A stretch of DNA of 39,689 nt from a virus: IMG/VR virus record IMGVR_UViG_3300025941_000055, positions 1 through 39,689 of that record. The stretch is one strand, 5' to 3'. The notes below the pieces were generated by a model. The model ran no database searches and was not told the DNA's origin. It worked only from the letters and a program-made list of their open reading frames with translations. Both the position numbers and the translations under genes were made by a program. How positions within the stretch are numbered: position 1 is the first letter of the stretch; each line of letters begins with the position of its first letter. Shown one piece after another: positions 12,574 through 36,468 of this stretch.

Positions 12574-13512
12574 TCAGGTCTGATCGAGCTTCTGGAAGAG
12601 AGCAAGGAACTCGCGATCGACGGCGGCCACGTTGCCCGACCGGCCCTCGTACTTGGCGATCAGGTCGTTGATCTTCTTCGTGGTGGCCGGAGTCAGGACG
12701 GGCGCCTCCAGAGCGGCGATCCTGATCTGCGCGTTGTTGAGGTCTTGGACGGTCGTCGTCAGCAGGGCTTCGAGGCGCTGCACCTGTGCGGCCAGATCAT
12801 TGATCGGCGGCTCGATCACGGGATCAGGCGGCGAGGGCTCTGGCTGGGGCGGGATCGGCGGGGCATTGTCGCCCGGGAACGCGGGCCAGGCGACACCGTT
12901 CGGCACGACGAGAATGCCCGGCTGGCCGCCGTAGGTGACGGTGCTGAACCCCTTAGGCAGGTGGATGGCGAAGTTCGTGAGGTCGGTGCGTACCTGCGGC
13001 TTGTCCACGTTGCCCCGGCACTGGCAGTCGATCATTCTGCTGTTGGGGCAGTCGGTCAGGTTCTCGTGATAGTGAATCGCCCAGTAGTTCTGCCGACCGA
13101 GCGCGTCCTTGCCCGACTCGTTCACGCCCAGCCCGCCGAAGCGGTTGCGGACAATCTCGATGCCGTTGGTCGGGTCTGCCTGCGTGTCCGGGTCGTCGCC
13201 GTCAACCCAGACCGTCAGGAACAGGTGCATGACATCGTTTGCCTTCCATTCGATGTCATACAGCTTGAGGCCCTGCGTGCCAGCGACATGCAGGCCCTCG
13301 ACGTGATCGGCCGACGCGCTCGCGCGCACGTTCTGGATCAGGCCCCGCTCGAAGCGAATGCGCTGGTCGGCGTACAACTGGGGCTTCTCGCCTGGCGGAC
13401 ACTTGTCGATCACGAAGTCCTTGAGCGCAGCATCCTGCACGTTCATGGCCCAGATGCCGCTGAACTCACCTGGCCCGCTGACCTTGCCGTCCTGTAGGGT
13501 TACTCCTGCCAT
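12574..13512 (-). CDS. beta-helix-like protein with Pro-rich hinge and coiled-coil tail
   Basis: In this 312-residue protein, residues 1-210 show the spaced short hydrophobic strands and Asn/Asp/Gly turns of a right-handed parallel beta-helix (WAMNVQDAALKDFVI, HVEGLHVAGTQGLKLYDIEW, GIEIVRNRFGGLGV), the fold of phage spikes and pectate lyases. A Pro-rich hinge (about 217-236) leads to a coiled coil and helical C-terminus (240-312). It begins 12 bp after the holin stop, so it shares the lysis message. A secreted or virion glycan-binding or depolymerase role is possible, but no catalytic residues can be assigned. Four cysteines are present, including an NCPN...CQC cluster. Confidence 0.55.
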   Translation of the reverse strand: MAGVTLQDGKVSGPGEFSGIWAMNVQDAALKDFVIDKCPPGEKPQLYADQRIRFERGLIQNVRASASADHVEGLHVAGTQGLKLYDIEWKANDVMHLFLTVWVDGDDPDTQADPTNGIEIVRNRFGGLGVNESGKDALGRQNYWAIHYHENLTDCPNSRMIDCQCRGNVDKPQVRTDLTNFAIHLPKGFSTVTYGGQPGILVVPNGVAWPAFPGDNAPPIPPQPEPSPPDPVIEPPINDLAAQVQRLEALLTTTVQDLNNAQIRIAALEAPVLTPATTKKINDLIAKYEGRSGNVAAVDREFLALFQKLDQT

Positions 13513-13738: not shown

Positions 13739-14689
13739 TCAGAAGTAGCTCCTTACCTCGTCCACTTTGCGGTAGTCCCAAGCCCGCTCCCCCGGCGGGT
13801 TGGAGCCGAAGCTGTAGCTGCGCCCGGCACCCAGGTACATCGTGACGTGCTGCGCGCCCTCGGTGTTGCCGTGAAACACGAGGTCACCTGGCTTGCGCTG
13901 ATCCCGATCGATGCGGCGCCCGTTGTTCTTCTGGGTGCCGGTGTAGCCGTGCCCGTCGAAGTCCCGGCCATTCGGATCGGGACCGCCCGCCACGCAGTAG
14001 AAGCAGCTGGTCGATCCGGAGCAGTCGGTCAGGAACGGCAGCACCAGCTTGCGCGGATAGGGCCTGATCTGGCGGTAGCGCGAGTTGCCCGCATTCGCGA
14101 TCGACCATCGCGCAGCCGAGACGAGTGCCTGTCGGATGCGGTCCTCGTTGTTGGGCGGCGGCGGCGTCTTGTGACCACGGTACTGCGTCTTGTCGTCGTC
14201 GTTCGCGAACTGCCAGAGTTGCGTGAAGGTGCTCTGGCCCATGTTCCCGGTGCCCTGAATGCCGTAGCTGCGCTGGAACAGGATCATGTCGTTCACGGTC
14301 TTCTGGCCGTACTTCCCGTTCTTGGCGTTCGTTGCCTGCCCGCCGAGCGACCGATACAGCATCCGCTGGACTGCCCGCACATCGTCGCCGTGATCGCCAG
14401 AGTACAGCGCACGGTGGATCGCCGGAGCCTGCGGCCTGTAGGACTGGTAGCCCTCCTGCTGCGCTGCGCTCATCATCGGCCAGAGCGTATCGAGGCTGAT
14501 CTGCCCCATCATGCCGGTCGGCTGAATGCCGTGATCCTTCTGGAACGCAGCCATGTCGGCGACGGACTTGTCGCCCCAGTTGCCGTTGCGCGCGTTCGTG
14601 TCGTAACCCGCGCGATGTAGTCCCTGCTGGATGGCGAGAACGTCGGCGCCGAACTCACCGAACTCGATGGGTCGCTTGAGCCTAGCCAT
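13739..14689 (-). CDS. endolysin: two PG-binding repeats plus NlpC/P60-type peptidase
   Basis: This 316-residue lysin has two tandem PG_binding_1-like repeats, about 13-70 and 97-160, each with a D(D/V)xAIQQ / VRAVQRM helix and a GxWGDKSVADMAAFQ / GKYGQKTVNDMILFQ helix. A Pro-rich hinge (173-181) leads to the catalytic domain (185-316) with nucleophile C223 in TDCSGST and H281 in AQHVTMYLG, the NlpC/P60 arrangement. It should cut peptide stems of the wall after release by the holin encoded next. Cys226-232 (SCFYC) are extra cysteines. The start overlaps a small upstream gene by 8 bp. The N-terminal placement of the wall-binding repeats is less common than C-terminal. Confidence 0.9.
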   Translation of the reverse strand: MARLKRPIEFGEFGADVLAIQQGLHRAGYDTNARNGNWGDKSVADMAAFQKDHGIQPTGMMGQISLDTLWPMMSAAQQEGYQSYRPQAPAIHRALYSGDHGDDVRAVQRMLYRSLGGQATNAKNGKYGQKTVNDMILFQRSYGIQGTGNMGQSTFTQLWQFANDDDKTQYRGHKTPPPPNNEDRIRQALVSAARWSIANAGNSRYRQIRPYPRKLVLPFLTDCSGSTSCFYCVAGGPDPNGRDFDGHGYTGTQKNNGRRIDRDQRKPGDLVFHGNTEGAQHVTMYLGAGRSYSFGSNPPGERAWDYRKVDEVRSYF

Positions 14690-15682: not shown

Positions 15683-16348
15683 CTACGGAGATGGTGCGTT
15701 CTTGAGAACGCCGAAGTTGGCGTAGTTTGTCTTGACCTGTCCGAAGTTCTGGCCTGTTGCCTTGAGTTCCCCGAACAGCATGGTTCCTGCCGTCGTTGCG
15801 TACGTCCATATGATGCCCGCCGGAAGAATCGCATTCGGGCCATCGTCGCTGAGCAGCGCCGTGACAGCCGCAGGATCAGGTGTCTCTGCCGTCCAGGTAG
15901 TGATCGCAACCTTGTACGGGTCACCATCGGCGCGCTCGATGATGCCGACATGCTTCGTTCCCGTGAGCAGGCGACCGATGGCCTCTTTTATTCCTCTTGG
16001 TGTGCCACGACGGAAGTTGACCTGATCCTTGATGATGGCGCGTGCCTCGCCTGCCGTGATCTGCTGCGGCAAACGGATACCCACAGTCTGTGCCAGCCAC
16101 CCTAGCGCCTCGGGCGGGCATAGATCGGGATCGACAAGATCGGCCCATGCCGACGGCGCACGCGACAGATCGATGATGTCCTGGATCATGATACCGATCG
16201 ATGCACAGTACCGTGCCAGCGCGAAGCCGTTCTCCTTGTCCTCGATCGCGAGCGGCGCCAGCTCCTCGTACAGATCATGCGCGAACGTGTCCAGAGGAAC
16301 CTCATCCTGGAGGTCGATGAAGTCATGCGCCCAGGGGAGATTGCTCAT
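15683..16348 (-). CDS. tail protein I-like baseplate wedge component
   Basis: This 221-residue protein follows baseplate J with an ATGA overlap, the conserved place of the P2 gpI / PBSX XkdU-type protein. The middle region (PPEALGWLAQTVGIRLP ... FRRGTPRGIKEAIGRLLTG) fits the family pattern of an aromatic LxxLAxxxGV helix followed by an RGTxxGI helix. It forms part of the wedge together with the J and gp25-like proteins and connects to the fibre encoded next. Confidence 0.8.
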   Translation of the reverse strand: MSNLPWAHDFIDLQDEVPLDTFAHDLYEELAPLAIEDKENGFALARYCASIGIMIQDIIDLSRAPSAWADLVDPDLCPPEALGWLAQTVGIRLPQQITAGEARAIIKDQVNFRRGTPRGIKEAIGRLLTGTKHVGIIERADGDPYKVAITTWTAETPDPAAVTALLSDDGPNAILPAGIIWTYATTAGTMLFGELKATGQNFGQVKTNYANFGVLKNAPSP

Positions 16349-17538
16349 GGCGATGTGATGGTCATGACGCCCGGATTCGGCAGCGGCCCGACACCTGTCA
16401 TGGTGATGTCAGCAGTGCCCCCGTTGATGGTCATCGAAACGATGTAGTCCACGGACGGCACATTGTTGACGACGGTCGTGAGTTCCAGGTAACGCACCTT
16501 CGTCTCGTTCTTCCAAGGGAAGGGATCGCCGAACTGGCCTCCGACATGCGGAGCACCCCAGTTTGCCGGACTGAGATACAGGCGCAGCGCGTCCGCAACC
16601 TCCACAGCCATCGCTGCCGGATCGTACCCGGGCACCGGCACCACCGATGCCGTGACGTTGATGGTTGTGTACGTCGGGTCGATGACAAAGACGTTGAAGG
16701 TGACCTCGCGGTACGACTGGAGCAGCGCATCGACTTCTGCCTTGACTGGCGCGCTCAGCGCGTGCCCCGCCTCGTCAGCCGCAACGACCGTGACAGTGCG
16801 CGCTTGGCCAGTGAGCGGCCCGGTCGGGTTGTATCCGTCAATCGCCACGGCCCTGCCGACACTCGGATGGTCTAGCGAGAGGAGGGCGAAGTCCTGCGGC
16901 AGAATAGGTGCTGGCGAGAGCAACGTGAGCCGCTGCGACAGGCGGCTCATGTACTCGACGTTGGTCTCGGCGTCCTGCCCGCCCGCAGACGTGCTTGCCA
17001 GAACAACGCCGACCACACCCGTCCAGGAATCGAGGAGTACGGCCGGGTTGGTCGGGCCGAGCCCGTTATAGTACGGCCCCGTCTCTAGGGCAACGACCAT
17101 AACCTCGTGTGTCAGGCTGCCCGCAGGGACAAAGGCATCAATCTCAATCTGGAAGCCCCGCTGAATGCCGAGTGAGTCTGTCACGGCGAAGGTCAGGCCA
17201 GCCGGAAGCGCATAGCCCGCCACATTGGAGTCCAGCGTGAACGTCGCCGTGGCGCGGGAGTAGGTTGCGTCTTGGGGCGGTGTGTTGAACAGGTCGTTCC
17301 CGAGACGCATGAAAATGGTGTCCGGCACGTCGGCCGCGACGTCGCGCGCCTCAGCAACCATGCGCGCCATCGCTTCGAGCATCCAGACGTCGAGATTGCC
17401 CGATGCCGGTGCCCACCCCGGAATGTTGAACTCCAGGTAGGCGTAGGCGTCTTCAAGCAACCGATCGGGATCGGTCGTGATGGGGTAGGGAATGTAAGGC
17501 ACGCTAGAGGGCCATTCGTACGTTTGCAACGAACTCAT
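16345..17538 (-). CDS. baseplate J-like protein
   Basis: This 397-residue protein has the baseplate_J features: an N-terminal helical region ending in WMLEAMARMVAEARD, a PAGLTFAV beta domain, the G-T-x-NPAVLLD region, a middle domain with AGGQDAETNVEYMSRL (typical GxDxExDexxRxR), and a C-terminal beta domain with IDPTYTTINVTASVVP. It forms the wedge arms of the contractile-tail baseplate. The start overlaps the gp25-like gene by 35 bp; GAGGAG lies 10 nt before the ATG. It corresponds to PBSX XkdT / P2 gpJ. Confidence 0.9.
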   Translation of the reverse strand: MSSLQTYEWPSSVPYIPYPITTDPDRLLEDAYAYLEFNIPGWAPASGNLDVWMLEAMARMVAEARDVAADVPDTIFMRLGNDLFNTPPQDATYSRATATFTLDSNVAGYALPAGLTFAVTDSLGIQRGFQIEIDAFVPAGSLTHEVMVVALETGPYYNGLGPTNPAVLLDSWTGVVGVVLASTSAGGQDAETNVEYMSRLSQRLTLLSPAPILPQDFALLSLDHPSVGRAVAIDGYNPTGPLTGQARTVTVVAADEAGHALSAPVKAEVDALLQSYREVTFNVFVIDPTYTTINVTASVVPVPGYDPAAMAVEVADALRLYLSPANWGAPHVGGQFGDPFPWKNETKVRYLELTTVVNNVPSVDYIVSMTINGGTADITMTGVGPLPNPGVMTITSP

Positions 17539-17827
17539 CGCGGGTCATCTCCTCGCCAACGGTGAGGTCAAGCACCGCTTGGGCACGTGGTTCATCAGCA
17601 TCTATCTCCGTCATGAGAAGATCCACGTCGATTGGTGCCGTGAAGGTCGGATCAGTGATGCCGAACTCGGGCTGATCGACCCGCCAACCTCGCGGCGTCA
17701 GCGCCGAACACACCACGCAGTCGGCAACCTCCTCCGGTGAGTCCTGCTCATTCACGACGGCGTGCCTCGTCGGTCCCCATCGGAACGGATAGGCAAAGTG
17801 CATCGGGATTGGATCATCGATAGGCAT
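17504..17827 (-). CDS. gp25/GPW-like baseplate wedge protein
   Basis: At 107 residues this has the size and position of the gp25/XkdS lysozyme-like wedge protein, directly before baseplate J. The sequence includes a beta-hairpin with a GI-DPTF segment and the late RAQAVLDLTV core helix/strand. The ATG shares one base with the spike stop (TAATG). In contractile tails this protein joins the sheath to the wedge. The sequence signature is moderate, so the call leans on order. Confidence 0.7.
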   Translation of the reverse strand: MPIDDPIPMHFAYPFRWGPTRHAVVNEQDSPEEVADCVVCSALTPRGWRVDQPEFGITDPTFTAPIDVDLLMTEIDADEPRAQAVLDLTVGEEMTRDEFVANVRMAL

Positions 17828-19071
17828 TATGCCGCCAGGTAGTGAATGTTGTCGATACTGATAACGCTCGCGATGCCGCCACCTACACCGGCCACCCCAG
17901 CGCCGAGAATTGTCATCGTTCCGTCAGTGCCAATCTGTAGGGCAATCGGACGAGGACCATTGCTCACGTCATTGTCGATTACGGTGATGAGCTGGTTCAT
18001 GATCGGACGAGCACCGGTGGGCACATCACCCATAATTGCGTTCGCTCCACCAAAAGCGAATGCTGCGGTATTGCGAAACTTGCCTTCAAGAAACACCGTA
18101 CCCGACGAGTCCTTACGCCAACGAGGCGACGAGCCTGTTGTGTCTGCGACCCAGTTCGCCCTGCCCGCGATGTTCGTCCACGACCCAGGACTAACGGTGC
18201 CTGCCGCGCCCGTAGCACCCGTTGGACCCGTGCTGCCCGTTGCGCCAGTCGGCCCCTGTGGGCCAGTCAGGTTATCTCGCAGCGTGTAAGTGCTGGCGCC
18301 AGTCTTTTCATAGATGTCACCATTGGCATCGTTCTCGTACCAATCCCCGATGATGCCGAGCGAGCCCGCCGGAGAGCCCGTGCCTGATCGCCAGACCGAA
18401 CCAGGAGCACCAGGAGCACCGGTAGCACCTGTCGAGCCAGGTGCGCCGGTGCTGCCCGTACTGCCAGTCGCACCGGTCGGCCCCCGGAGGTTACCCCGAG
18501 ACGTCCAAGTGCTCGTGCCAGTCTTTTCGTAAATGTCACCGTTCGCCGTATCGAGGTACCAATCCCCGACAATGCCCGTCGCTCCTGCGGGAGCGCCTGA
18601 GCCGCTGAACCATTTCTCACCCGGCGTGCCTGCCGCACCCGTGCTACCAGTTGGCCCGGTTGCGCCCGTTGCTCCGGTCGAACCCGCCGGTCCCTGCGGG
18701 CCAGTAGTTCCCGTGGCACCGGTCGGCCCCTGCGGGCCAGCCGGCCCTGTCGGCCCCGTCGGCCCTGCTGGTCCCGTAGGCCCTGGCGGACCGACCTCTC
18801 CACCACCCGCAGCCGCAGAAGGAATAACCAGCCAGTGCCCTCCCGGCTCGGGCGTGATCGCGATCAGACACTCCAGGCCGACCTCGGGCACGATGTCCTG
18901 CGCAATCAGCGGCCCCCATTCGACACGAGCATCCTGCGTGGGGATCGTTGCGAAGACCTCGTTCGATGGGCCAATACGCGATATAGTTGCAGAGTGAACA
19001 CCCTGCGGGAGCCTTGGCTTGACGCTCGCGTGCGCCTGATCGCGACGAACCTGGAGGTCAAGGTCGGTCAT
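17827..19071 (-). CDS. collagen-like baseplate spike/fibre protein with OB-like N-terminus
   Basis: This 414-residue protein has a beta-barrel-like N-terminus (about 20-85), as in gpV/gp5-type spike proteins, then Gly-X-Y collagen-like tracts at 91-150, 197-224 and 270-292. Between them two near-identical modules (151-196 and 225-269) share WY-(L/E)-(N/D)-ANGDIYEKTG, a motif seen in phage tail proteins. Residues 293-414 are a beta-rich trimerisation or tip domain. The collagen tracts predict a trimeric rod about the tail axis. It is coupled to the hub (ATGA) and to the gp25-like gene (TAATG), placing it at the spike position, but it could also be a side fibre. Confidence 0.7.
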   Translation of the reverse strand: MTDLDLQVRRDQAHASVKPRLPQGVHSATISRIGPSNEVFATIPTQDARVEWGPLIAQDIVPEVGLECLIAITPEPGGHWLVIPSAAAGGGEVGPPGPTGPAGPTGPTGPAGPQGPTGATGTTGPQGPAGSTGATGATGPTGSTGAAGTPGEKWFSGSGAPAGATGIVGDWYLDTANGDIYEKTGTSTWTSRGNLRGPTGATGSTGSTGAPGSTGATGAPGAPGSVWRSGTGSPAGSLGIIGDWYENDANGDIYEKTGASTYTLRDNLTGPQGPTGATGSTGPTGATGAAGTVSPGSWTNIAGRANWVADTTGSSPRWRKDSSGTVFLEGKFRNTAAFAFGGANAIMGDVPTGARPIMNQLITVIDNDVSNGPRPIALQIGTDGTMTILGAGVAGVGGGIASVISIDNIHYLAA

Positions 19072-21851
19072 GAAAGCCTGGCCCGTGGATCAACCTGGTC
19101 GGGATCATTCGTATTGGCATGGATCTTGTACTTGTCGGGCATGAGCACGCCGGGGCGCGCCCAGAACTGAACAGAATCCGTTGCCTTGTTCGTGACCTTC
19201 AAGCCACAGACCGTGCAGGAGGCTTCGACTGTTTCTGTCCCGTTACCTGTCGCCATGATGATGTGCTGACCAGTCGTGTCGTGCGGCCAGATCAGGTCAC
19301 CCGGCTTCCAGCCATCCTGCGGCCTACCAATACCGTTGACCTGTGTGCCGCCACGGGGCACGTTCCTGCGCACCATCTCGTTCCACTGATCGCCGGTCGT
19401 GCCGCCGCATGACGCCAGATCAACCTCGATGAAGCTGTAGGCATGGGTGCAGAAGGAGGAGCAGTCCCACGGGCCATCGTAGTTCGGGTACTGCCGGAAC
19501 CATGCATAGCTGTAGTGTCCGCCGCCGTAGTGATACGAGTTCGGCCCTGGCGCACGCGGTGCCTTCGACTGGGCCCAGCGGATGACGCGGTTTACACCAT
19601 CCATCAGCGAGTCGTCCCACGGAAGGCTCTGCCCTGGTCCACCACCTGGCCCGTGATTCTCGCCGCCTGGCCCGTCCGGATCGATGCTCTCGACATGGGT
19701 ATCGGGCGCAGGCTCCTTCAACTGCGGCGTCTCACCGATCAGCGTGATGGTTGCCTTATCGCTGAACATCGACCGCTCGAAGGTCTGGGTTATGTAGCGG
19801 CCCGTCGCAGGCCCCATATCCTTGATGACGACGCACAGGCCCGGGATCGTGTTCCAGCGATCAGCCCGACACTGTACGGTAATCATTGACATTGGCTTGC
19901 CGACATCATAGTCGAAGTCGATGAAGTCCACGCCGTCATCGAACTCGCTTATCGTATCCATTGCCTTGTTCTTGAGCAACACCTTGTCGCGACAGAAGTA
20001 GATGGTACGGTTGACGCAGAAACAGCGCCAATTCACTTCGTCTGCGAGTCGCTGCAAGCACTCCCAGGAGTTCTCGGGTCGCTCCGGTGTGCCGCGCGTG
20101 AATTCATATGGCTCAGAGACAACGGTCTGCCGAGGGCCAGCATTGACCTCGAAGTTATAGTCTTCCTGGTCATAGCTGTCGGCGTCCGGGCCGAACGATG
20201 GGCCTACCGGCCGACCTCCGTATGCGAGATGACGATGCAGGAACAGCTGGGTTGCCTTGAACGCCTCCTCGGGGTACGGGGCTTCCTTGTACCTGGCCCC
20301 GTAATCATCAAAGCTCTCCATGCTGCGGCGTGTCACGTCGTTGACGGTGCGCCACAGCGGAGGTATGGCCTGCGAACTCTGCGGGGTATCGTGATGTGCG
20401 GCCATGTCCAGATCGAAGAAATACTTGGCCTTCTGGAAATACTTCTCGGCCTGCTGCTCGATTGTCCACCCCTGAATGCCGGGATAGTCGCTGATCTTGA
20501 ACTGGAACAGTCCGAATCGAGGCGCGTAGTCGGCCGCATCCTCGTCGGCAGTCGGACTATCCTGGATGTAAAGGTTGAGCGCGCCCGAATCACGCATGGC
20601 ACACAAGACACCGCCTGCCAACAGCCAGTCATTCATGCCCATCTTGTCGCCCTTCTTCAAGATGCGCTCGATGTTCCTGATCTGCTGCTTATTGGCCGCG
20701 GTGCCGCCTAGTTGGAATGTAGTGCCGTCATCAAACCCTGGCCCCTGCCCCTGCTGATTGTTCTCATTCTGGCTAGTGTCGTTCTCGTTGCGATTGCGCG
20801 CGGGGGTTGCCGACGATCCCGCCACGACGGCATTCTCGTATCGCGCACGATTGGCTTGCACGGCGGGCAAGGTAGCAGCCGCGTGCTGTGTGCCCCAGCC
20901 GCTGACATCAATCGCCTGACACGTTGCAAGCGCGTTGTTGCCCAAAGCGAAGTATCCGCGCACCGTTGCGTATCCTGCCGAAGCATCGGACGCGAGGGTC
21001 AGATGGTTTGCTTCCAGGCCGACGTCCCAGTTCGGATAATTCTTGACGTGCGCGGACGTGTTGAAGTCAGAGATGGCACCCTGGCTGTGTGTAGTGTTCA
21101 AAGGGTTGAACGCTGCACCACGGCCATCAGTACCGGACTCGGCCGCCATCCAGGCGAGCAGGGCGTCGAAATTCTGCGCCGTCTGCGGCCAGTTGAACTT
21201 GCTGAGAAAGTCGCGTGCCCAGTTTTTCCAGGTGCCTGACCCGCCGCCACCACCAGAGCCACTGACAGGCGTACCGGTTGGCGCCTCGGTTTCGGTGACA
21301 TTATGGTCGTCGATCGGGTATATTTCCTGGACTATGTTCTTCTCCGGTGAGTAGAACGTGAGCCCTTCGACTTCCTTTACCAGCTGCTCGGCAAACTGCG
21401 CACGAGTGACCTGCCCGCGCACTGCCTTCTTTGGCCCAGTCTTCTTGCGAAGCTGATTGACCGCCCAGTCTTCAAAGGTTAGCTCCAAAGATTCTCCCGT
21501 CTTGCGTACTTTGACCAACACGAACTTCATGTTCTGGATCACTAGGTCGGACGCCTCATTGACCATCGCCGATCGCGTCATCTTACGGTCGTAGTCGGTG
21601 ATGGTAATGACGAGAGTGCTCGCACCCTCGATCGTGCGTGTCAGACGGGCACTGGTGACCTGCTCCTCAATGACCGTCTTGGCATCCTTGCCCCGGATTG
21701 TGATCCCGGCCAAGGTCACATCGCTGAGCGTTCCCGCCTTGCCCGTGCCGAACTGGTCATCGTCGGCCGGGCGCTCGATCTTGCCGCCCGGCACCGAAAT
21801 CCTGATGGTGCGCTCAGAGTAGCCCTCGGTGATCTTACTTGTTGGGGACAC
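19068..21851 (-). CDS. baseplate hub with two lysozyme-like inserts and a C-terminal NlpC/P60 domain
   Basis: I start at GTG 21851 (AAGG 6 nt upstream, 17-bp overlap with the LysM gene; a TTG 24 bp upstream is the alternative), giving 927 residues. Residues 43-177 and 585-712 look like the two halves of an XkdQ/gpD-type hub. Between them are two wall-lytic-like domains: about 207-345 (E238 in AAESG, then NPLNTT, NYPNWDVGLEA) and about 390-545 (DSG at 421-423, GLFQF at 446-451). After a Gly/Pro linker comes an NlpC/P60 domain (742-905) with C797 in WDCSSF and H863 in QHIIMA. It would form the tail tip and open the wall during DNA entry. The second lytic domain has Asp where Glu is usual. Confidence 0.85.
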   Translation of the reverse strand: MSPTSKITEGYSERTIRISVPGGKIERPADDDQFGTGKAGTLSDVTLAGITIRGKDAKTVIEEQVTSARLTRTIEGASTLVITITDYDRKMTRSAMVNEASDLVIQNMKFVLVKVRKTGESLELTFEDWAVNQLRKKTGPKKAVRGQVTRAQFAEQLVKEVEGLTFYSPEKNIVQEIYPIDDHNVTETEAPTGTPVSGSGGGGGSGTWKNWARDFLSKFNWPQTAQNFDALLAWMAAESGTDGRGAAFNPLNTTHSQGAISDFNTSAHVKNYPNWDVGLEANHLTLASDASAGYATVRGYFALGNNALATCQAIDVSGWGTQHAAATLPAVQANRARYENAVVAGSSATPARNRNENDTSQNENNQQGQGPGFDDGTTFQLGGTAANKQQIRNIERILKKGDKMGMNDWLLAGGVLCAMRDSGALNLYIQDSPTADEDAADYAPRFGLFQFKISDYPGIQGWTIEQQAEKYFQKAKYFFDLDMAAHHDTPQSSQAIPPLWRTVNDVTRRSMESFDDYGARYKEAPYPEEAFKATQLFLHRHLAYGGRPVGPSFGPDADSYDQEDYNFEVNAGPRQTVVSEPYEFTRGTPERPENSWECLQRLADEVNWRCFCVNRTIYFCRDKVLLKNKAMDTISEFDDGVDFIDFDYDVGKPMSMITVQCRADRWNTIPGLCVVIKDMGPATGRYITQTFERSMFSDKATITLIGETPQLKEPAPDTHVESIDPDGPGGENHGPGGGPGQSLPWDDSLMDGVNRVIRWAQSKAPRAPGPNSYHYGGGHYSYAWFRQYPNYDGPWDCSSFCTHAYSFIEVDLASCGGTTGDQWNEMVRRNVPRGGTQVNGIGRPQDGWKPGDLIWPHDTTGQHIIMATGNGTETVEASCTVCGLKVTNKATDSVQFWARPGVLMPDKYKIHANTNDPDQVDPRARLS

Positions 21852-22512
21852 GCGGCACCTTGATCTTGTCGCCAACCTTCATCGCATGACCCGGGCGGAA
21901 GTTATTGAAGTCAATGATCTTGATGGCGTACTTCTTGTCCCCCATCAGCCTGAGCGCAACGATCGGCCAGGTGTCGCCCTTCTTCCAGGTGTACCTGCTC
22001 GGCATGTTCCGATGAGGATTGCGCGCCTCGGTGGGCTTCGGCACGATGCGACCATACTCGACCGTGTTCGCTTGCATGAACGTGATCTGCACCGTCTGGC
22101 GCTTCGTCTCGCCCTCGCTGTTGCGAATTGTCGTGCCCCACGTAATGTCCGTGATGACCCACGGCACCGACCGTGGCTTGGGCACGGCCTTGCAGTCGAT
22201 GTAGACTCGCGGCGGTGGTCGATTATTGCTTGTCGGTATGGTCATTGCCTCCAGGTTGGACAGGGCGGTGTCAACATTCGTGATCGCCACGTCCTCACCC
22301 CAAGCATCGAAAACAATCTCCAGTTGCATCTCAACCGGACTGAGGCCCTTGTACTGGATGCGTCCCCGCTTGCGCGGGCGATCGATTGTCTCCCACCCGC
22401 CGTATCCGCCCGTGATGCGCGGAGTGTCCTCGCCCATCAGACCCTTGACCGGGGGATCGATCTTGAGCGCAGGGCATGTGATGGTGATGTATACAAAGTC
22501 AGGAGGAGTCAT
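21835..22512 (-). CDS. LysM-domain tail protein (XkdP-like)
   Basis: This 225-residue protein has a beta-rich N-terminal two thirds and a C-terminal LysM module (about 173-222: YTWKKGDTWPIVALRLMGD ... MKVGDKIKVP). It starts with an ATGA overlap at the end of the tape measure gene and overlaps the hub gene. The order tape measure, LysM protein, hub equals PBSX xkdO-xkdP-xkdQ, where the LysM protein sits in the hub and contacts the tape measure or peptidoglycan. Confidence 0.85.
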   Translation of the reverse strand: MTPPDFVYITITCPALKIDPPVKGLMGEDTPRITGGYGGWETIDRPRKRGRIQYKGLSPVEMQLEIVFDAWGEDVAITNVDTALSNLEAMTIPTSNNRPPPRVYIDCKAVPKPRSVPWVITDITWGTTIRNSEGETKRQTVQITFMQANTVEYGRIVPKPTEARNPHRNMPSRYTWKKGDTWPIVALRLMGDKKYAIKIIDFNNFRPGHAMKVGDKIKVPRVPNK

Positions 22513-24548
22513 CGCCGTGCCGCCACGTCTCCGTATCGGGTAGCTACGGCGCGCCCAACCTCACGGCCGTCGATTTCGACATGGACATGCACCGGCCGGT
22601 CCAGGTCACTCGTCCTGCCCCTGCTGGTAGGGTCGGTGAAGCTATCAGCCGACACCCGAGGGAAGATACCTGGCATGGGCGATACGGGAACAGGCACGGC
22701 GACCGCGCCGCCACGCGGCCCGCCGGGATATCGGCGCGGCAGGTTACCAGGCGATCTATCGCCGCCGCCCTGGGACAGCGCACTGAACGCGGCGATGTTC
22801 GATCCGATGACCCAACCGACGCCGGGCATCCCAGTCAGTGCAGCCGCCGGTCGCAGCACATCTGGAACATTCGCGGCGCCGAATATCTTGTCCCAAACAA
22901 CTGCGTGCGCTGCCTGCGCAGCAACACCCGCTGCGATGATCGGCGTGGCGACACCGGCAACCTTGGGGAGTCCGCCCTTCGGAGAGCCCGGAATGCCCGT
23001 GCCCTGTCCCTGCTGCGCCCTGGTGACCGCAATGATCGATGTCGCCAGCACGAAGTTCGCGATCGAGTTCGCTATCGCGAGCGCCTTCATCGTTGTCCAG
23101 TACCCGATGAGGATCGCAAGGATTGGCTCTAGTAGCCAACTGTTGTCAGTAATGACCTTGAGAGCTTCGCCCGTCAATTGCAAGATCGGGAGTAGCACTG
23201 GCGCCAGCGCATCGTGCATCTTGAAGAACGCATCCACCAGCTCAAGAGCTATTGTGCCCGCAGCCTCAGCCGAAGTGGCAACGCCATCGATCGTATCCTT
23301 GTGCTCCTCCATCCACACGTTCAGGTCAAACTTCTGGATGCGCTCCGTGATGTCGTCCAACCACCCCTGCATCGGGCCAGTCTTCTGCATCAACTGGGTG
23401 TCGCCGATCTTCGTGATCGAGCCCCACAGCCGCTCAAAGGACGCACTGACCGTCGAGTTCATGATCTTGGCCGTTTCCTCGGCCTGGCCCGCGTAGTCCT
23501 TCATCTCTGCCTTGTTCTGCTCGACCAAATCCTTGTTGTTCAGTTGCAGGTTGAGCAGCGTGCCCCAGACGTCGGCCGCGTCCTTGCCGAACAGATTGCC
23601 AAGCACCTCTGCCTGATCGGTGCGGCTCATGCCGCCGATGAGTTCGGCCACCTTCTCGATGATGCGCGGCAGCTTGAGCAGATTGCCAGCCGTATCTCGG
23701 AAGTACCACATGCCCTTGCCGAGATTCTTCATCATCTTCTCGGTTTCGGGTGTCGCGTCCGCTAGACGCGCCAGACCCGTTGCCAGACCGGTGCCGACAT
23801 TCTGTCCGCGCATACCGGCGCGACCGAGCAGGGCCACCGTCTCTAGCACGTCCTCAAGCGACTGATTGGCGATCGCCGCCGGACCGGACAGGTACTTCAT
23901 GGTATAGCCGAGGTCTTCCATGTTGATTGCAGACACGTTGACTGCCTGCGTCAACAGGTCGGCAATCTTGGCCGAGTCCTCGACCTTCATGCCCCACGAG
24001 TTCATGATGCCCAGCTGCAACTGCGCGGACTCGGCCTGCCCGTAGCCTGACGCTTGTGCCAGATTCAACGAGTTGCGAAGCACGACCATCGAGTCGCTAG
24101 CACTGACGCCTGCGGCCTCGATCTGGTACAAGGCGTCGGCTGCCTCAGCACCGGTCGCGCGAAACTCCTGCGCGATGTCTAGTGTCTCGCGCCAAGTCCT
24201 GTTGAACAGGCCAGGAGTCTTGGCAAATTCCTCGCGATTGATCGCATGAACCTTCGCCATCGCATCCTCGAAGCCCAGAGCCTCGCGCGTGATGGCGCCG
24301 ATACCAGTAGCCACGGTTGCAAAGCCCGCATACGATAGCCACCGGAAGGCGCCCATCGTCTTGAGGGACTGATCGAGATGACCAACATCTCTGCTCGCCG
24401 CCTTCGACTTGGCAGCGGTCTTGTCAATCTCCTTGCCTAGCTTCTGCTGGGCCCGGGTCACCTTGTCGATATTCCCGGCCGCGTTTGCCGCGCCGGTCGC
24501 CCGAATATCCATAGTGACCCGATTGTAGCCGCTACCTGTGCTGGACAT
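22509..24548 (-). CDS. tail tape measure protein
   Basis: This 679-residue protein opens with a coiled-coil (20-55) followed by a TP901-type tape measure core (about 60-380) with ATGAEAADALYQIEAAGVSA and GLATGLARLADATPETEKM. Residues 470-560 include Ala/Ile-rich hydrophobic helices that may insert in the host membrane. At about 1.5 A per residue the length implies a tail near 100 nm. It follows the frameshifted chaperone gene by 10 bp, as expected, and is coupled to the LysM gene. It sets sheath/tube length and leaves the tail at infection. Confidence 0.92.
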   Translation of the reverse strand: MSSTGSGYNRVTMDIRATGAANAAGNIDKVTRAQQKLGKEIDKTAAKSKAASRDVGHLDQSLKTMGAFRWLSYAGFATVATGIGAITREALGFEDAMAKVHAINREEFAKTPGLFNRTWRETLDIAQEFRATGAEAADALYQIEAAGVSASDSMVVLRNSLNLAQASGYGQAESAQLQLGIMNSWGMKVEDSAKIADLLTQAVNVSAINMEDLGYTMKYLSGPAAIANQSLEDVLETVALLGRAGMRGQNVGTGLATGLARLADATPETEKMMKNLGKGMWYFRDTAGNLLKLPRIIEKVAELIGGMSRTDQAEVLGNLFGKDAADVWGTLLNLQLNNKDLVEQNKAEMKDYAGQAEETAKIMNSTVSASFERLWGSITKIGDTQLMQKTGPMQGWLDDITERIQKFDLNVWMEEHKDTIDGVATSAEAAGTIALELVDAFFKMHDALAPVLLPILQLTGEALKVITDNSWLLEPILAILIGYWTTMKALAIANSIANFVLATSIIAVTRAQQGQGTGIPGSPKGGLPKVAGVATPIIAAGVAAQAAHAVVWDKIFGAANVPDVLRPAAALTGMPGVGWVIGSNIAAFSALSQGGGDRSPGNLPRRYPGGPRGGAVAVPVPVSPMPGIFPRVSADSFTDPTSRGRTSDLDRPVHVHVEIDGREVGRAVATRYGDVAARR

Positions 24549-24558
24549 CTCTCACCCC

Positions 24559-24825
24559 CTACCTGAACATTTTGGCGAGTATACTCGCGAGCTTATTGGC
24601 GATCATGATTGACTGCTGTTCCTGATTGAACTGATGTATCTCCAATGCCTTGTTGAGTATGGACATCCAGACCTCGCGCTCTACCTCGTCAGTTGAGTGC
24701 AGAAGGACGTGCGCAGCCTCCTGGCTCCCTACATTGACGGCGTATGCTATTGCCTTGATGGTAGGCGCGCGGGTTATTCCCCCTGGAAGTCCTCCGAGAT
24801 TTCGGGCTGACTCGACTGCATCCAT
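24559..24825 (-). CDS. second reading frame of the tail assembly chaperone (T part, via -1 frameshift)
   Basis: This open frame lies in -1 relative to the chaperone gene and has no ribosome site of its own at its first Met. Read from the slippery site it adds 73 residues (GITRAPT ... LAKMFR), giving a fusion of about 237 residues. The added part is helical, with VWMSILNKALEIHQF and SIMIANKLASILAKM, typical of the T domain that binds the tube while the G part binds the tape measure. It ends 10 bp before the tape measure gene, the conserved arrangement. Independent translation as an 88-residue protein seems unlikely. Confidence 0.75.
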   Translation of the reverse strand: MDAVESARNLGGLPGGITRAPTIKAIAYAVNVGSQEAAHVLLHSTDEVEREVWMSILNKALEIHQFNQEQQSIMIANKLASILAKMFR

Positions 24826-25271
24826 GCCAGCACCTGATTGCTGTGCGCCGCCATCGCAAGGTCATTGGCGAACATATACGCGACGACATCGCGAGCGCGA
24901 TCGGTGTCATAGCCGAAGAACTTGGCCAGTGTCATATCGTAGCCGTCCGAGATGTGCGTACCGTCCACGGCGTCCATCGATACGCAGGCCCGGATGAGCA
25001 GGTCCGCGTGCGCGCCCAGGACTTCCTTCGACTTGTCCGTGCTGGATACGCGCCGGACGATCTGCATGACGTCGCCGTACTCCATGCGCTTGTAGGTCGC
25101 CTGGAGCAAGTTGTCGTATCCGGGCACGTCGAACGTCTTGGTCGTATCGTTTGCAATCGCAGTCCGCCGGGCGCGAAGCTGGTCCATGAAGGACTGCTCC
25201 GCGTCCGACGGCTGCTCATCGGGCTCTGGCTCGTAGCCGTCGCCCTGTGTGATCTGAGATTCGGTTGCCAT
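24774..25271 (-). CDS. tail assembly chaperone (G product)
   Basis: This acidic 165-residue protein lies between the tail tube and tape measure genes and ends in EDFQGE-stop, directly at the slippery GGGGGAA. It has a disordered acidic N-terminus (1-28) followed by helices (DQLRARRTAIAND, ADLLIRACVSM, DRARDVVAYMFANDLAM). Position, size and the overlapping -1 frame identify it as the gpG-type chaperone that keeps the tape measure soluble until tube polymerisation. Confidence 0.82.
   Translation of the reverse strand: MATESQITQGDGYEPEPDEQPSDAEQSFMDQLRARRTAIANDTTKTFDVPGYDNLLQATYKRMEYGDVMQIVRRVSSTDKSKEVLGAHADLLIRACVSMDAVDGTHISDGYDMTLAKFFGYDTDRARDVVAYMFANDLAMAAHSNQVLAWMQSSQPEISEDFQGE
24777..24783 (-). 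other. programmed -1 frameshift slippery site GGGGGAA
   Basis: In the zero frame the message reads CAG GGG GAA TAA. The Gly tRNA on GGG can re-pair one base back on GGG, after which reading continues GGA ATA ACC into the T frame. The site sits one codon before the zero-frame stop, as in many phage tail chaperone genes. Confidence 0.7.
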
Positions 25272-25295: not shown

Positions 25296-25715
25296 CTAGC
25301 CCAACGTCCCGTTGCACGAGACTTCGAGCGTCATGAGTCCTGCCTCGCTGGATTCCGAGTCCACTTCGGGGAAGCTGACGGTCTTGAGCTTCCCCGTGTA
25401 GACCAGGCGTACACCGTAGGCGTTCTTGTCCACGTCCAGGTGAACCTTCGTGACGGTCACCGTTGCGCGACCGACTGCCTTGGCCAGCTGATGTGCCTTG
25501 GGCAGATCGGTGTCGTACTCGAACATCTTGCCGACGATGACGTTGTTGATGGACTTCGTGCCGCCGAGCGACACCGCTTCGGCCATGCCTCCCGGCCGGT
25601 ACTTCAACTCCTCCGAGTCCACTTCGCCACCCGTGAGAGTGTCGAAGGTGCCCAGATCGCCCAGCTGCGGGTAGTCCACGTACACGTTGACGAGGTACTG
25701 GTCACGACGCGGCAT
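25296..25715 (-). CDS. tail tube protein
   Basis: This 139-residue protein comes immediately after the sheath (TGATG, one base shared), in the place of PBSX XkdM / P2 FII tube protein. It is mostly beta strands with conserved-looking segments (YPQLGDLGTFDTLTGGEVDSEELKYRPGGM, SINNVIVGKMFEYDTDL). It would stack as hexamers forming the inner tube inside the sheath. Confidence 0.85.
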   Translation of the reverse strand: MPRRDQYLVNVYVDYPQLGDLGTFDTLTGGEVDSEELKYRPGGMAEAVSLGGTKSINNVIVGKMFEYDTDLPKAHQLAKAVGRATVTVTKVHLDVDKNAYGVRLVYTGKLKTVSFPEVDSESSEAGLMTLEVSCNGTLG

Positions 25716-27151
25716 CAGACCAGCACCTCCGTGACGGCCTGCTTCACGATGTCGATGTGAACCAGCTCGGCGAACGGGCTGGTCCTGATGTAGATGACCG
25801 CCCTGATCTGGCCGTCAGCGATCGTCTCGCTCGTGTTGACCGCGTTGCCGACGTCCACGAAGAACGCCTCGTCGGCAGCGGTGCCATAGAGCGCACCCGA
25901 CTCGAAGTACGGGATGAGCATCCCGGTCAGCTGGCCGGCGAACTTCTCGAACACGATCCCCTCGCCGTCGATCTGATGGAAGGTGAAGTCCTCGGCGATC
26001 GCGTACGCCTTGGCCTTGATCTCCATCACGAGCCGCACGTTGTTCAGGCCGATCCAGCCCCTGAGCTTCGCCGGATCAGCCAGCGTGCGGTAGCCGTAGG
26101 TGCGCACGCCACCGAACATCTCACGGGCGATGTCCACACCGCCTGTGTTCAGTTCCTCGCGGTCTGGGTCGGTGAAGCCGCCGACGACGCCGATGGCGTA
26201 GCGGGACTCGCCGTTCTTGCCCGCTGCTGGCACGTTCGCGTTCGGCTGCCTTGCCATCAGTGCGGCCTGCACCGCGCTGTACGGGACGAGCCGCACCGTG
26301 CCTGCGACCAGGCCCGGAACCTCTGCCCACGGCGCGAACAGGGCACCGTAGCGTGCGTTGGGATCGTCACGCAGCCCTGCGGCCTGGGCGAGCAGGGTTG
26401 CCTTGCTCGGCGTTGCCGCGTACGCCGTGTCCATGACGGCGACCCTGTTCATGTCGTAGGCGTGCTGGAGCAGCGCCTTCTGGATGGCCGACGACGTGCG
26501 ACCCGGAGCCGACACCTGACCTGGCCCTAGCTCGATCGTCAGCTTCGCGAGCGCCGTGACCCACTGCGGGTCGGTTGCCGTTGCCACGTCGTCGGTGCCC
26601 GCCGACAGCGCAGTGGCCGTGACCGCGACCGGATCGAGTGCGCTTGGCCCTGCCGACAGGACGTTGATGTAGTCGGACAGGTTCGACCAGTCGATGGCGT
26701 CCTGCTTGACCGCGAACACCGGACTCGTCTCCAGGATCGCTGCGGTCACCGCATCCGTCAGCGTGAACTGGAAGTTGCCCGCACTCGGGATGGTCACTGC
26801 GATCTTGATGCCCGACGACCACGCACCTGCGTTCTTGGCCTCGATCCTGAACAGGTCGGCCACGGCCGAGTCCTTGAGCAGCAGGAAGCCCTTGGTCGGG
26901 GCGACGCCGAACACGCGCTGGAAGTACACGCGCGAGCCACCGTCCCGGAAGAACGTCTCCATCGAGTCGTACGAGGTCTGATACCCCGTGCGGCCCCCGT
27001 ACTTGCTGGTGTACTCCGAGAACGAGCGCACCAGCGCTGGCGTGTCGGGGCCGTTCTCGGCCGTCCCGATCACGAACCAGGTGTCGATGCTGACAGGCGC
27101 CGAACGAGGCGGTGCCGCATCGACCACATTGACTTCGACACCAGGCCTCAC
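25715..27151 (-). CDS. contractile tail sheath protein
   Basis: This 478-residue protein begins at GTG 27151 (GTGA overlap) with MRPGVEVNVVDAAPP, the usual PGVYVxExD-type sheath N-terminus that donates a strand to the neighbouring subunit. The middle has a sheath protease-like domain (VTALAKLTIELGPGQVSAPG, ALLQHAYDMNRVAVMDTA), and the C-terminus (FVDVGNAVNTSETIADGQIRAVIYIRTSPFAELVHIDIVKQ) is the conserved tail sheath C-domain. Its presence proves a contractile tail. Confidence 0.93.
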   Translation of the reverse strand: MRPGVEVNVVDAAPPRSAPVSIDTWFVIGTAENGPDTPALVRSFSEYTSKYGGRTGYQTSYDSMETFFRDGGSRVYFQRVFGVAPTKGFLLLKDSAVADLFRIEAKNAGAWSSGIKIAVTIPSAGNFQFTLTDAVTAAILETSPVFAVKQDAIDWSNLSDYINVLSAGPSALDPVAVTATALSAGTDDVATATDPQWVTALAKLTIELGPGQVSAPGRTSSAIQKALLQHAYDMNRVAVMDTAYAATPSKATLLAQAAGLRDDPNARYGALFAPWAEVPGLVAGTVRLVPYSAVQAALMARQPNANVPAAGKNGESRYAIGVVGGFTDPDREELNTGGVDIAREMFGGVRTYGYRTLADPAKLRGWIGLNNVRLVMEIKAKAYAIAEDFTFHQIDGEGIVFEKFAGQLTGMLIPYFESGALYGTAADEAFFVDVGNAVNTSETIADGQIRAVIYIRTSPFAELVHIDIVKQAVTEVLV

Positions 27152-32236: not shown

Positions 32237-33668
32237 GGCGAGTGGGCCTCCGAGGCCCCGGGACGCGGCCGTTGGACGGCGCACGGAGGGCCGACGCACG
32301 GACGGCGACGTCGGCTGGAGGAACGCTGACCGGTCGGCCGCGCCCCGAGGCTGTCGAGGGGGAGCCATTGCTAGACGGCGCGGGTGCCGTCTCTTGTGGA
32401 GCAATGGTCCGCGAAGGGCTGTTCGGGTCGCGCTGGGGCAGATTCCAGCGCTTCCGGATCCAACCCTCCGTCTCGTCATCGAGAACCAGTATCTGACTCT
32501 CGAACAGAGCGATCAGGTCAGCGACCGCCAGATCGGGGTCTTCGTCGCGCTCGAACCCGATCATGGGTGCGTTCGCGTTCGGCCCCGAATTCCAGTCGGT
32601 GTAGTCCTCTAGCATGTGAGCGTTGAAGGTGTCGCGGATATCCTCTGCCAGCGACATCTGGCTCAGGCTAAAGAAGTCGATGAACCCTTCGCTCAGAGCG
32701 CGCGAACCATAGGACGTCGTCCCTAGCTGCGCGAACATTTGGAGGAACTTGCGAGCGGTCTGCTCGTCCTGGTAGCGGATGGAAGCGAGCACGTCCGACA
32801 CGGTGCCCTCGACGCCCTTGAGCGTGAGGTCCATGCCATCGGTCAGCGTGCCACCCGAGAACTCGCCCGCCTTGTAGCCAGAGGCGATCTTCTGCGCTGC
32901 CTCGATCTGCTGCTTGGATGCGCGTGTCGGCAGGGTCACGATCGGCACGCCCATGCTGTTGCGCTCGTGCCGCAGGATATCCAGGCGCAGGAGACGATCC
33001 TTGAGGAGCCAATTCTTGTAGACCGACCGCAGCATCGAGCGACCGAGCCAGTTGGCCCCTTCCTTGTCGTTGACGTACCCGACCAGGCGGTTGACCGGCA
33101 GCTTGCGGATGCCCGTGGGATCGTTGGCAGTGTAGATGCCCGCTTCCTGCCCGACCCATTCCAGGCTGCCCTGCTCGCTAACCTTGACGTCAGTGATCGT
33201 CTTGGGATGGACATAGGCGAGCTTGCGCAGGCGCCACATGCCGCCGCGCACTTCGCCTACCTGCTCGAAGAAAGCATGGCCGTAAATCTTGCTCAGCAGT
33301 GCCAAGCGAACGTGCTCGCGCCAGTTGAACCTGTCGCGGGAGCGAGGAATGTCGGTCTTGGGCGCGTCGAGTACCGGCAGGCCGATGTCCTCGTGCGCTG
33401 CCTTGACCAGACGTGCCGGAGCGCCGTTCGGGTCGATGAACCAACGGTAGCGCAGGATCGGCAGGATCGTGCCCATCCATAGGGCATCGATCTGCGAGTC
33501 GGTGCGCATCTGCTCGTAGGTCAGGCGCGACTTGGGCCAGCGCAGTTCCGGCACGCGCTCGGCGTCGTTTGCCCACTCCTGCCAGTTGCCGCCCCACATA
33601 TCGGTGCCCGGCACCCACGGAGAGACGAAGTCCTTGGACTGCTGCCGCTTAGAGGGAGCCGTACTCAC
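32229..33668 (-). CDS. portal protein (DUF935/Mu gp29-like)
   Basis: This 479-residue protein starts at GTG 33668 (GTGA overlap with TerL). Its segments WQEWANDAERVPELRWPKSRLTYEQM, TILPILRYRWFIDPNG, HAFFEQVGEV, RKLAYVHPKTI, NWLGRSMLRSVYKNWLLKDRLLRLDILRHERNSMGVP fit DUF935-type portals. The last 70 residues are Pro/Ser/Arg-rich and probably disordered. It forms the dodecameric DNA channel at the vertex, binding TerL during packaging and the adaptor afterwards. Confidence 0.88.
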   Translation of the reverse strand: MSTAPSKRQQSKDFVSPWVPGTDMWGGNWQEWANDAERVPELRWPKSRLTYEQMRTDSQIDALWMGTILPILRYRWFIDPNGAPARLVKAAHEDIGLPVLDAPKTDIPRSRDRFNWREHVRLALLSKIYGHAFFEQVGEVRGGMWRLRKLAYVHPKTITDVKVSEQGSLEWVGQEAGIYTANDPTGIRKLPVNRLVGYVNDKEGANWLGRSMLRSVYKNWLLKDRLLRLDILRHERNSMGVPIVTLPTRASKQQIEAAQKIASGYKAGEFSGGTLTDGMDLTLKGVEGTVSDVLASIRYQDEQTARKFLQMFAQLGTTSYGSRALSEGFIDFFSLSQMSLAEDIRDTFNAHMLEDYTDWNSGPNANAPMIGFERDEDPDLAVADLIALFESQILVLDDETEGWIRKRWNLPQRDPNSPSRTIAPQETAPAPSSNGSPSTASGRGRPVSVPPADVAVRASALRAPSNGRVPGPRRPTRRA

Positions 33669-35221: not shown

Positions 35222-36468
35222 GCCGACCACGCCAGACTGGCGCCTGCGTAGACGCGATCGACAACCTTGCTGCCCATGTACACCGCGTCGGCCGCATTGA
35301 GAACCGTGCCGTCGATGGCATCGATGCGGGTGGTGATGTTCATCGTCAGCGGCAGGGCAACCTTGCCAAACGTCTTGCGCCGCGCCTGCGTGTCCGAGGC
35401 AAAGAGGGACTGCCGCGCCACGACGCCGAAGGTCTGCCGCTTGGCCTGCACTACCGCGCCGAACGTCACTGGCATATCGACGCGGCTGAATGCGTGCTTC
35501 TTGGCCTGCACCGCTGCGGCAAAGGTGAGCGGCAGCGCGACCTGGCCGAAGTGCGTGACCGGTATGTGCGCAGTAAGCCCACCGTGCGTGAAGATGCTGG
35601 CCGTGAGAGGCGTATTGGTATTGCTGAACGTCTTGCGCCTGGCCTGCGTCACCGCACCGAGCGCGAGCGGCATCGCTACCTGGCCAAATGTCTTGCGCAG
35701 GCCCTGGACGACGGCGTTGACCGTCGAGGGCCGCGCGACGACACCAAACGTCTTGCGCTTTGCCTGCGTGACCGCTGCGAACGTGGCCGGGAGTGCCGTT
35801 GCTCCAAAGTACGTCGTCGGTGCGGCGACGCCCTCCTGCAAGCCAAGGATGACTCCGGCCGACGAGGACATGGACGCGGCGCCCGTGAAGATGCACTCGG
35901 CTGCGGTGCTGGCCACCCCGTTGCGCGTGGCAACGTGTAGCGGCTGTCCGGTGTTGCCGTCGTACCGCTCGGTCCAGCCAGCGGTGACGCTGTTGACCAG
36001 GGTGCCGGTGTCCTCGGTGATCGCTGCCACCAGGAAGGATGCCGACGCTGGCGTCACCGAACCGGAGCGAGACGTCGTTCCTGCGGCCTGCGCCTGGACG
36101 ATGTTATTGACCTCGACCGCCGTCGGCACCTTGATTCCAGATACCTCCATGATGAAGACTTGGAAGTATTCGCAGTTCGGCACATCGACCTGGAGCGAGT
36201 ACGGCGAGCGGGCCGGAATGTTCAGCGCGTACTGGATCTGACATACGCCGTTGAAGGTCGTCCACGACCACTGATCGGCGCCCGGGAGCCAGGAAGCGTT
36301 GGCGTCGTTGATGTAGGGCCATCCCGGCGAATTGCTGGTGTCGTAGGCCGAGAAGCACGCGATCAGGGTGTTGCCAGCAACCGTCGGCGAGTCCAGGATG
36401 ACCATGGTCACCTGTGGCCCCGTGCCGAGGAGGTTGATTGCCTTGCCCTGAACGAATGCTCCAGCCAT
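35218..36468 (-). CDS. virion protein with 20-residue tandem repeats
   Basis: In this 416-residue protein, residues 1-215 form a beta-sandwich-like domain (VAGNTLIACFSAYDTSN, YFQVFIMEVSGIKVPTAVE, SFLVAAITEDTGT) of the lectin/adhesin kind. Residues 219-378 consist of eight repeats of about 20 residues with consensus (K/Q)TFGxVAxPLTFxAVxQAxR; phase is exact except for a six-residue insertion near 299. The C-terminus (380-416) is a small cap. The TFG-VA-P pattern suggests a repetitive beta structure. Its location just before TerL, with other fibre-like genes, suggests a tail fibre or capsid fibre. No family is recognised. Confidence 0.65.
   Translation of the reverse strand: MAGAFVQGKAINLLGTGPQVTMVILDSPTVAGNTLIACFSAYDTSNSPGWPYINDANASWLPGADQWSWTTFNGVCQIQYALNIPARSPYSLQVDVPNCEYFQVFIMEVSGIKVPTAVEVNNIVQAQAAGTTSRSGSVTPASASFLVAAITEDTGTLVNSVTAGWTERYDGNTGQPLHVATRNGVASTAAECIFTGAASMSSSAGVILGLQEGVAAPTTYFGATALPATFAAVTQAKRKTFGVVARPSTVNAVVQGLRKTFGQVAMPLALGAVTQARRKTFSNTNTPLTASIFTHGGLTAHIPVTHFGQVALPLTFAAAVQAKKHAFSRVDMPVTFGAVVQAKRQTFGVVARQSLFASDTQARRKTFGKVALPLTMNITTRIDAIDGTVLNAADAVYMGSKVVDRVYAGASLAWSA
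35335..35814 (-). repeat. 60-bp in-frame tandem repeats (20 residues each)
   Basis: Degenerate repeats with a 60-bp period encode the KTFG-VA-P-...-QA-R units at residues 219-378. The GTCTTGCGC(C/T)..GCCTG(C/G) core recurs in most copies on the plus strand (for example near 35371, 35629, 35689 and 35749). Such repeats can vary in copy number by slippage or recombination. Confidence 0.65.

Follow-up and report, generated by a model that had tools for sequence, protein, structure and literature searches.

A baseplate hub carrying two unrelated, predicted lysozyme-type inserts and a predicted NlpC/P60 peptidase in an uncultivated contractile-tailed phage

Introduction

Glycan and peptide cutters borne on one hub protein are already known, the diffocin hub being an example. 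In diffocin, the lytic transglycosylase and the NlpC/P60 peptidase of the hub were proposed to act like scissors (PMC10996793). Here we analyze the tail hub gene of an uncultivated virus (IMG/VR record IMGVR_UViG_3300025941_000055, positions 1 to 39,689); the whole stretch of 39,689 nucleotides is referred to as the window. We conclude that the encoded protein is a gp27/XkdQ-like baseplate hub of a contractile-tailed phage, split by two predicted domains (insert 1 and insert 2, counted from the N-terminus) and followed by an NlpC/P60-like peptidase. Our favored reading, to which we assign a probability of about 0.6, is that of a wall-piercing hub in which insert 1 and the NlpC/P60 domain would cut, the altered GH184-type insert 2 would bind, act as a spacer or retain weak activity, and insert 1 would serve as the replacement glycosidase.

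The diffocin hub-hydrolase CD1368 (8v3w) resembles the window protein in that a gp27-like hub directed against a Gram-positive wall bears a glycan cutter and an NlpC/P60 domain on one chain. In CD1368, however, the hub halves have no enzyme between them, and an MltA-like glycan cutter and the NlpC/P60 domain are arranged in tandem C-terminally, whereas the window protein has two unrelated lysozyme-type domains inserted, one of them without its Glu. Phage phi29 gp13 has dual activity toward glycan and peptide. It likewise joins lysozyme-type and peptidase-type domains in one tail-tip protein, but is a podophage knob protein and not a gp27-like hub. The gp13 structure has been discussed previously (PMC10394673). 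The initial annotation of the window had taken the combination of cutters to suit a thick or unusual cell wall; we do not retain this suggestion, as both diffocin and phi29 gp13 already unite glycan and peptide cutters on one tail-tip protein.

In the cultured Gordonia phage ScarletRaider, gp50 and gp51 (L005:21906-23270 and 23281-24633) are tandem hub-like paralogues, one of which, annotated as a minor tail protein, bears a GH184-type domain while the other bears NlpC/P60. In contrast to the window, these domains are C-terminal on two paralogues and not inserted. Uncultured hubs (L010-L024 and L109) share the hub halves of the window protein, the site of insert 2 and a variable C-terminal module, but lack insert 1 and keep the Glu. 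For the inserts themselves, the GH184 muramidases KsGH184 (8b2e) and TtGH184 (8b2h) share the fold and family profile of insert 2, although the window has Asp421 in place of Glu41 and the next loop is replaced. The nearest solved folds to insert 1 are the GH73 N-acetylglucosaminidases Auto (3fi7) and AtlA (7qfu), with a presumably equivalent Glu at a helix end; the window domain has no significant sequence match to GH73, and its NPxNTT and VxNY motifs are its own. As far as our searches show, the inserted layout with two unrelated lysozyme-type domains, a gained domain that coincides with the missing Glu of the older one, and insert 1 itself as an uncatalogued domain would be new.

Results

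A full-length AlphaFold2 (AF2) model, built with 12 sequences, was of good quality for both hub halves and for insert 2. The model matched gp27-like hubs of contractile systems by Foldseek at a probability of 1.00 (E 2.3e-4 to 1e-3), including monocin (9j1k), diffocin (8v3w), the Streptomyces contractile injection system (9gtr), the Algoriphagus injection system and Listeria gp18; T4 gp27 (1k28) was a weaker match (E 0.028). This agrees with the XkdQ-type hub proposed in the initial annotation. The predicted local distance difference test score (pLDDT) of the hub N-half was mostly 63-95 from residue 61 onward. A second hub, found via a sheath scan in contig L004 (L004:6889-9492, 867 aa), is 51% identical to the window protein and carries both inserts in equal places; in the N-half, identity is 91/139 to L004 and 70/139 to L109. 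Three enzyme-type domains in a single hub chain are unusual and might suggest that the reading frame is a chimera or an assembly artefact. L004 is an independent metagenome contig with an identical insert layout, and we rejected the chimera on these grounds, giving the artefact next to no credence.

Scanning with an alignment of the hub C-half returned 16 viral loci. L009 is the contig of L004, three loci (L012, L013, L017) are exact copies of L011, L022 is a near-copy of L021 and L024 is partial, which leaves ten distinct hubs (L010, L011, L014, L015, L016, L018, L019, L020, L021 and L023). The L109 hub was found by a scan with the J protein. All 11 comparison hubs thus came via the hub C-half or the J gene and not via insert 2, and in 11/11 insert 2 is present with its catalytic Glu and insert 1 is missing. 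In a tree of the hub halves the window protein and L004 are joined at 99/97, and L109 then joins them at 100/100. Both the gain of insert 1 and the replacement of Glu by Asp in insert 2 map to one well-supported inner branch. Insert 2 therefore appears to be the ancestral insert of the hub family and insert 1 a newcomer. Searches elsewhere returned little: the whole window protein had no tblastn match in cultured phages, tblastn of either window insert against phages gave nothing, scans of viral sequences with the hub or with insert 1 found no match or the contig of L004 alone, and scans of genome contigs for relatives of the hub or insert 1 found none. DNA similarity of the tail region amounted to one short stretch, in four Streptomyces phages.

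The family profile of insert 2 matched the fungal GH184 muramidases 8b2h (E 1.8e-15) and 8b2e (E 5e-13), and the full hub model matched 8b2e by Foldseek (probability 1.00, E 7.5e-3). The window and L004 inserts as a pair had no significant match in the PDB by themselves; hhalign placed this Asp pair on the Glu-type inserts (probability 98.3, E 2e-14) with D421 aligned over Glu. The window (Asp421) and L004 (Asp) thus lack the catalytic Glu that marks GH184 enzymes, as the initial annotation had noted for the window, and loss of cutting is probable. The insert 2 domain is also present in tape measure proteins of Streptomyces phages, where three copies keep the Glu. In addition, the motif GDxDSxGxFQQRPSxGW has given way to DSPTxxEDxxxxxPRxGxFQFxISDYP, which is common to the window and L004. 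The changed loop is 22/37 identical between these two proteins and the rest of insert 2 is 54/123 identical, a difference that is not significant (p=0.13). The mean ratio of insert to hub identity is 0.62 for Asp-Glu pairs and 0.80 for Glu-Glu pairs, the pairs being non-independent, which suggests that in the Asp lineage divergence of insert 2 outpaced that of the hub. Because the changed loop is common to both members and divergence is faster than in the hub, insert 2 looks constrained but altered.

Two alternative roles for insert 2 have to be weighed against this evidence. All three domains could be active, with Asp421 still acting as the acid, perhaps aided by the loop acids E437 and D438, such that the hub would carry two muramidase-type enzymes and a peptidase. 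The fold is kept and the loop shared with L004 indicates that the site is not decaying freely. Against this, all of the other hubs retain the Glu, as do the three tape measure copies; divergence of insert 2 was faster in this lineage; and Glu41 is essential by mutation in KsGH184 (PMC10394673). We regard activity of all three domains as improbable. Alternatively, insert 2 could be purely structural and hold the retracted hub to the baseplate wedge, neither cutting nor binding the wall. The kept fold without its Glu would fit such a role, and the hydrolase lobes of diffocin, for which a function like that of the pyocin ripcord was proposed, bind the wedge (PMC10996793). A structural role alone, however, leaves the retention of Gly447 and Gln450 of the glycan-site fold unexplained, and we consider it unlikely, if slightly less so than full activity.

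Insert 1 could be aligned across 38 members, every one of which has E238, G278, T285 and W319. The search pattern imposed the NP.NTT and V.NY columns of this alignment, but not these four residues. The pattern NPxNTT...V[KQR]NY occurs in 78 viral stretches (L027-L104), nearly all with one domain. Domains of this type are common across viral contigs of many kinds, in open reading frames (ORFs) of ~100 to >2000 aa, and share a chain with M23 (L086), NlpC/P60 (L089) or VanY (L076, L088) in other phage proteins. The AF2 model of insert 1 (pLDDT 91.5) places E238 at a helix end. Its nearest solved folds by Foldseek are the GH73 autolysins Auto (probability 0.97, E 0.14) and AtlA (probability 0.85, E 0.52), with phi29 gp13 ranking lower. 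The best matches among predicted viral structures were to a protein annotated as M23 and to two uncharacterised ones (E 4.1e-5 to 1.8e-4). Pfam Glucosaminidase (PF01832) was weakly matched by 4/38 members (best E 0.0034, 18.5 bits against a cut-off of 30.2) and not by the window member. The domain was not recognized by PDB sequences, PHROGs or NCBIfam and has no dedicated Pfam family, and no literature on the NPxNTT motif strings was found. PDB searches with two-sequence profiles of the inserts gave noise, and deeper alignments were required. Insert 1 of L004 matched phages and plasmids at chance level only; these matches include a Deinococcus protein adjoining a VgrG gene, which was dropped. 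A duplication of insert 2 was rejected as the origin of insert 1, as the profiles do not match (probability 0.1).

Together these comparisons suggest that insert 1 is a lysozyme-superfamily-like domain distinct from insert 2 and uncatalogued in Pfam, PHROGs and NCBIfam. The initial annotation had predicted two different lysozyme-type inserts, and structure prediction pointed to lysozyme-like folds for both, with GH73 fold neighbors for insert 1 and a GH184 match for insert 2. Its boundaries (207-345 and 390-545) were nearly right, except that insert 2 begins at about residue 376. Insert 1 might instead bind the wall and not be an enzyme, since no solved or curated enzyme family recognizes it above threshold and its Foldseek E to Auto is just 0.14. 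The invariance of E238 (38/38) at a lysozyme-type helix end, the catalytic GH73 domains as nearest folds and the weak Glucosaminidase matches of four members all argue for an enzyme, and a purely binding insert 1 seems to us a little less plausible again than either alternative for insert 2.

At the C-terminus, residues 736-927 in isolation matched NlpC/P60 (PF00877) with E=4.8e-5 and 23.7 bits against a cut-off of 23; the score was 19.7 bits when the full protein was scanned. The NlpC/P60 domain of L109 (E 2.7e-6) is homologous to that of the window. The peptidase extension is thus borne out, and D421, C797 and H863 all lie at the residues claimed for them in the initial annotation. L004 has an unrelated C-terminus with an M15-like (LAS) zinc site, H...D...HxxH, whose H39, D50, H108 and H111 are invariant in 4 sequences; as this module has no Pfam match, the M15-like name is taken from the motif. 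A module of this type is also present in L014, L015 and L024, and one further hub matches M23. Across the hub family (L010-L024, L109) the C-terminal module varies between NlpC/P60, M23, M15-like and DCS(S/G)S papain-like types. Since L004, L014, L015, L024 and the M23-type hub differ from the window at the C-terminus, we conclude that the C-terminal peptidase is swappable on a conserved hub.

The hub gene lies between the tape measure/LysM genes and the spike and baseplate wedge genes, as expected for a gp27/XkdQ-like hub (Table 1). On the minus strand the genes run sheath, tube-like ORF, two chaperone-like ORFs, tape measure, LysM-type, hub, collagen-like spike/fibre, gp25-like wedge, baseplate J and a Tail_P2_I protein. 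The hub frame (19068-21875), for which the initial annotation named no strand, extends upstream as far as a TTG at 21875, so that the exact start is uncertain; GTG 21851 is the choice of the initial annotation. The hub gene shares a short overlap with the LysM gene at the 3' end of the latter, whose product occupies the position of LysM proteins in ScarletRaider and Cantare. The sheath gene indicates a contractile-tailed phage. The sheath matched 95 phage records, nearly all from Arthrobacter, Gordonia, Streptomyces and Brevibacterium phages, and three actinobacterial myophages matched in this way have a similar tail gene order. On this basis the host is probably a Gram-positive actinobacterium.

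Table 1. Coordinates of the hub gene, its parts and neighboring tail genes in the window.
Feature	Position	Strand	Basis
Tail hub gene	19068..21851	minus	927 aa; GTG at 21851, stop at 19068
Hub N-half, residues 45-183, gp27-like beta domain	21303..21719	minus	Foldseek matches to gp27-like hubs
Gly-rich linker before insert 1, residues 198-206	21234..21260	minus	sequence; L004 likewise Gly-rich
Insert 1, residues 206-340, uncatalogued NPxNTT domain, predicted lysozyme-superfamily/GH73-like	20832..21236	minus	38-member alignment, AF2, Foldseek 3fi7/7qfu
E238, proposed catalytic Glu of insert 1	21138..21140	minus	invariant 38/38; C-end of model helix 23-37
Insert 2, residues 376-545, GH184-type muramidase domain, active-site loop rebuilt	20217..20726	minus	hhalign, family profile, model
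D421, position of GH184 catalytic Glu	20589..20591	minus	Asp in window and L004, Glu in 11/11 other hubs
Hub C-half, residues 576-715	19707..20126	minus	pLDDT mostly 77-91; most conserved part of the family
NlpC/P60-like peptidase, residues 745-905	19137..19619	minus	PF00877; 57/150 identical to L109 module
C797, proposed nucleophile	19461..19463	minus	DCSSF motif kept in L109
H863, proposed catalytic His	19263..19265	minus	kept in L109
E876, candidate third polar residue of NlpC/P60 site	19224..19226	minus	VEA kept in L109; our own assignment
LysM-type tube-tail/baseplate protein, upstream of hub	21835..22512	minus	weak LysM and GpU matches
Collagen-like spike/fibre protein, downstream of hub	17827..19071	minus	Pfam Collagen 1.6e-16
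Tail sheath	25715..27151	minus	phrog_23 1.6e-30
Tape measure	22509-24548	minus	
Baseplate J wedge	16345..17538	minus	Pfam Baseplate_J 4.9e-17

Several other minus-strand frames of the window were noted. Two overlapping ORFs (24559-24825 and 24774-25271), just upstream of the tape measure gene, resemble a tail assembly chaperone pair; such pairs are usually joined via a programmed frameshift. An endolysin-like protein (13739-14689) has two PG_binding_1 domains and a C-terminal NlpC/P60 domain (Pfam 1e-20 and 1e-7), so that the phage would have a second NlpC/P60 enzyme besides the hub. The product of the adjoining gene (12574-13512), 312 aa long, matched neither Pfam nor PHROG families. The 743 aa ORF 33665-35896, read from a GTG, is probably overlong: its terminase-like part seems to begin well inside, and its upstream part overlaps ORF 35218-36468.

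Discussion

In the mechanism that we propose, the two hub halves would form a gp27-like ring, presumably trimeric, between tube and spike, with two wall-directed domains hanging between the halves and the peptidase behind. By analogy with diffocin, contraction would push the hub into the wall. Insert 1 may then cut glycan strands by means of E238 and the NlpC/P60 domain may cut stem peptides by means of C797 and H863, such that the two together would open a local hole for the tube. In the lineage of the window and L004, the ancestral GH184-type insert 2 would have lost its catalytic Glu and had its active-site loop rebuilt; it is now most likely a glycan binder or spacer with weak activity at best, binding being a presumed role. 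Insert 1 would have appeared on the same branch as the Glu-to-Asp change and taken over the role of glycosidase, in an order of events that we infer.

Several observations weigh against this mechanism. Asp serves as general acid in some enzymes. Insert 2 retains Gly447 and Gln450 and has gained E437 and D438, both shared with L004, so that activity is possible. The match of insert 1 to solved folds is weak (E 0.14, template modelling score 0.50-0.56), and the score of the isolated NlpC/P60 domain barely exceeds its cut-off. The full-length AF2 model has a mean pLDDT of 56.1 and is of low quality except in the hub and insert 2, which makes the proposed arrangement of the domains tentative. Finally, the form with Asp and insert 1 is found in two genomes only, and the coupling of the two changes rests on a single branch.

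As that one branch carries both insert 1 and the change from Glu to Asp, insert 1 has probably replaced the older insert 2 as glycosidase, with insert 2 turning into a binder, a spacer or a weakly active domain. A more specific proposal is that insert 1 represents an uncatalogued family of phage peptidoglycan glycosidases whose gain freed the GH184 insert to become a glycan-binding pseudo-muramidase kept in the hub. We advance this tentatively, at somewhat less than even odds, from comparison of sequences and folds.

The window hub offers a concrete, testable case of how the wall cutters of a tail tip may evolve, with a hub that stays fixed, a muramidase insert of ancestral origin and a C-terminal peptidase that can be swapped; in one lineage a second insert coincides with loss of the Glu. 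If our reading is true, an enzyme was replaced in the tail tip without loss of the old domain. Furthermore, domains of the insert 1 type occur widely in phage contigs and have neither a dedicated family (Pfam, PHROGs, NCBIfam) nor a solved sequence relative. Characterizing this domain would name a likely wall-cutting part of many phage proteins.

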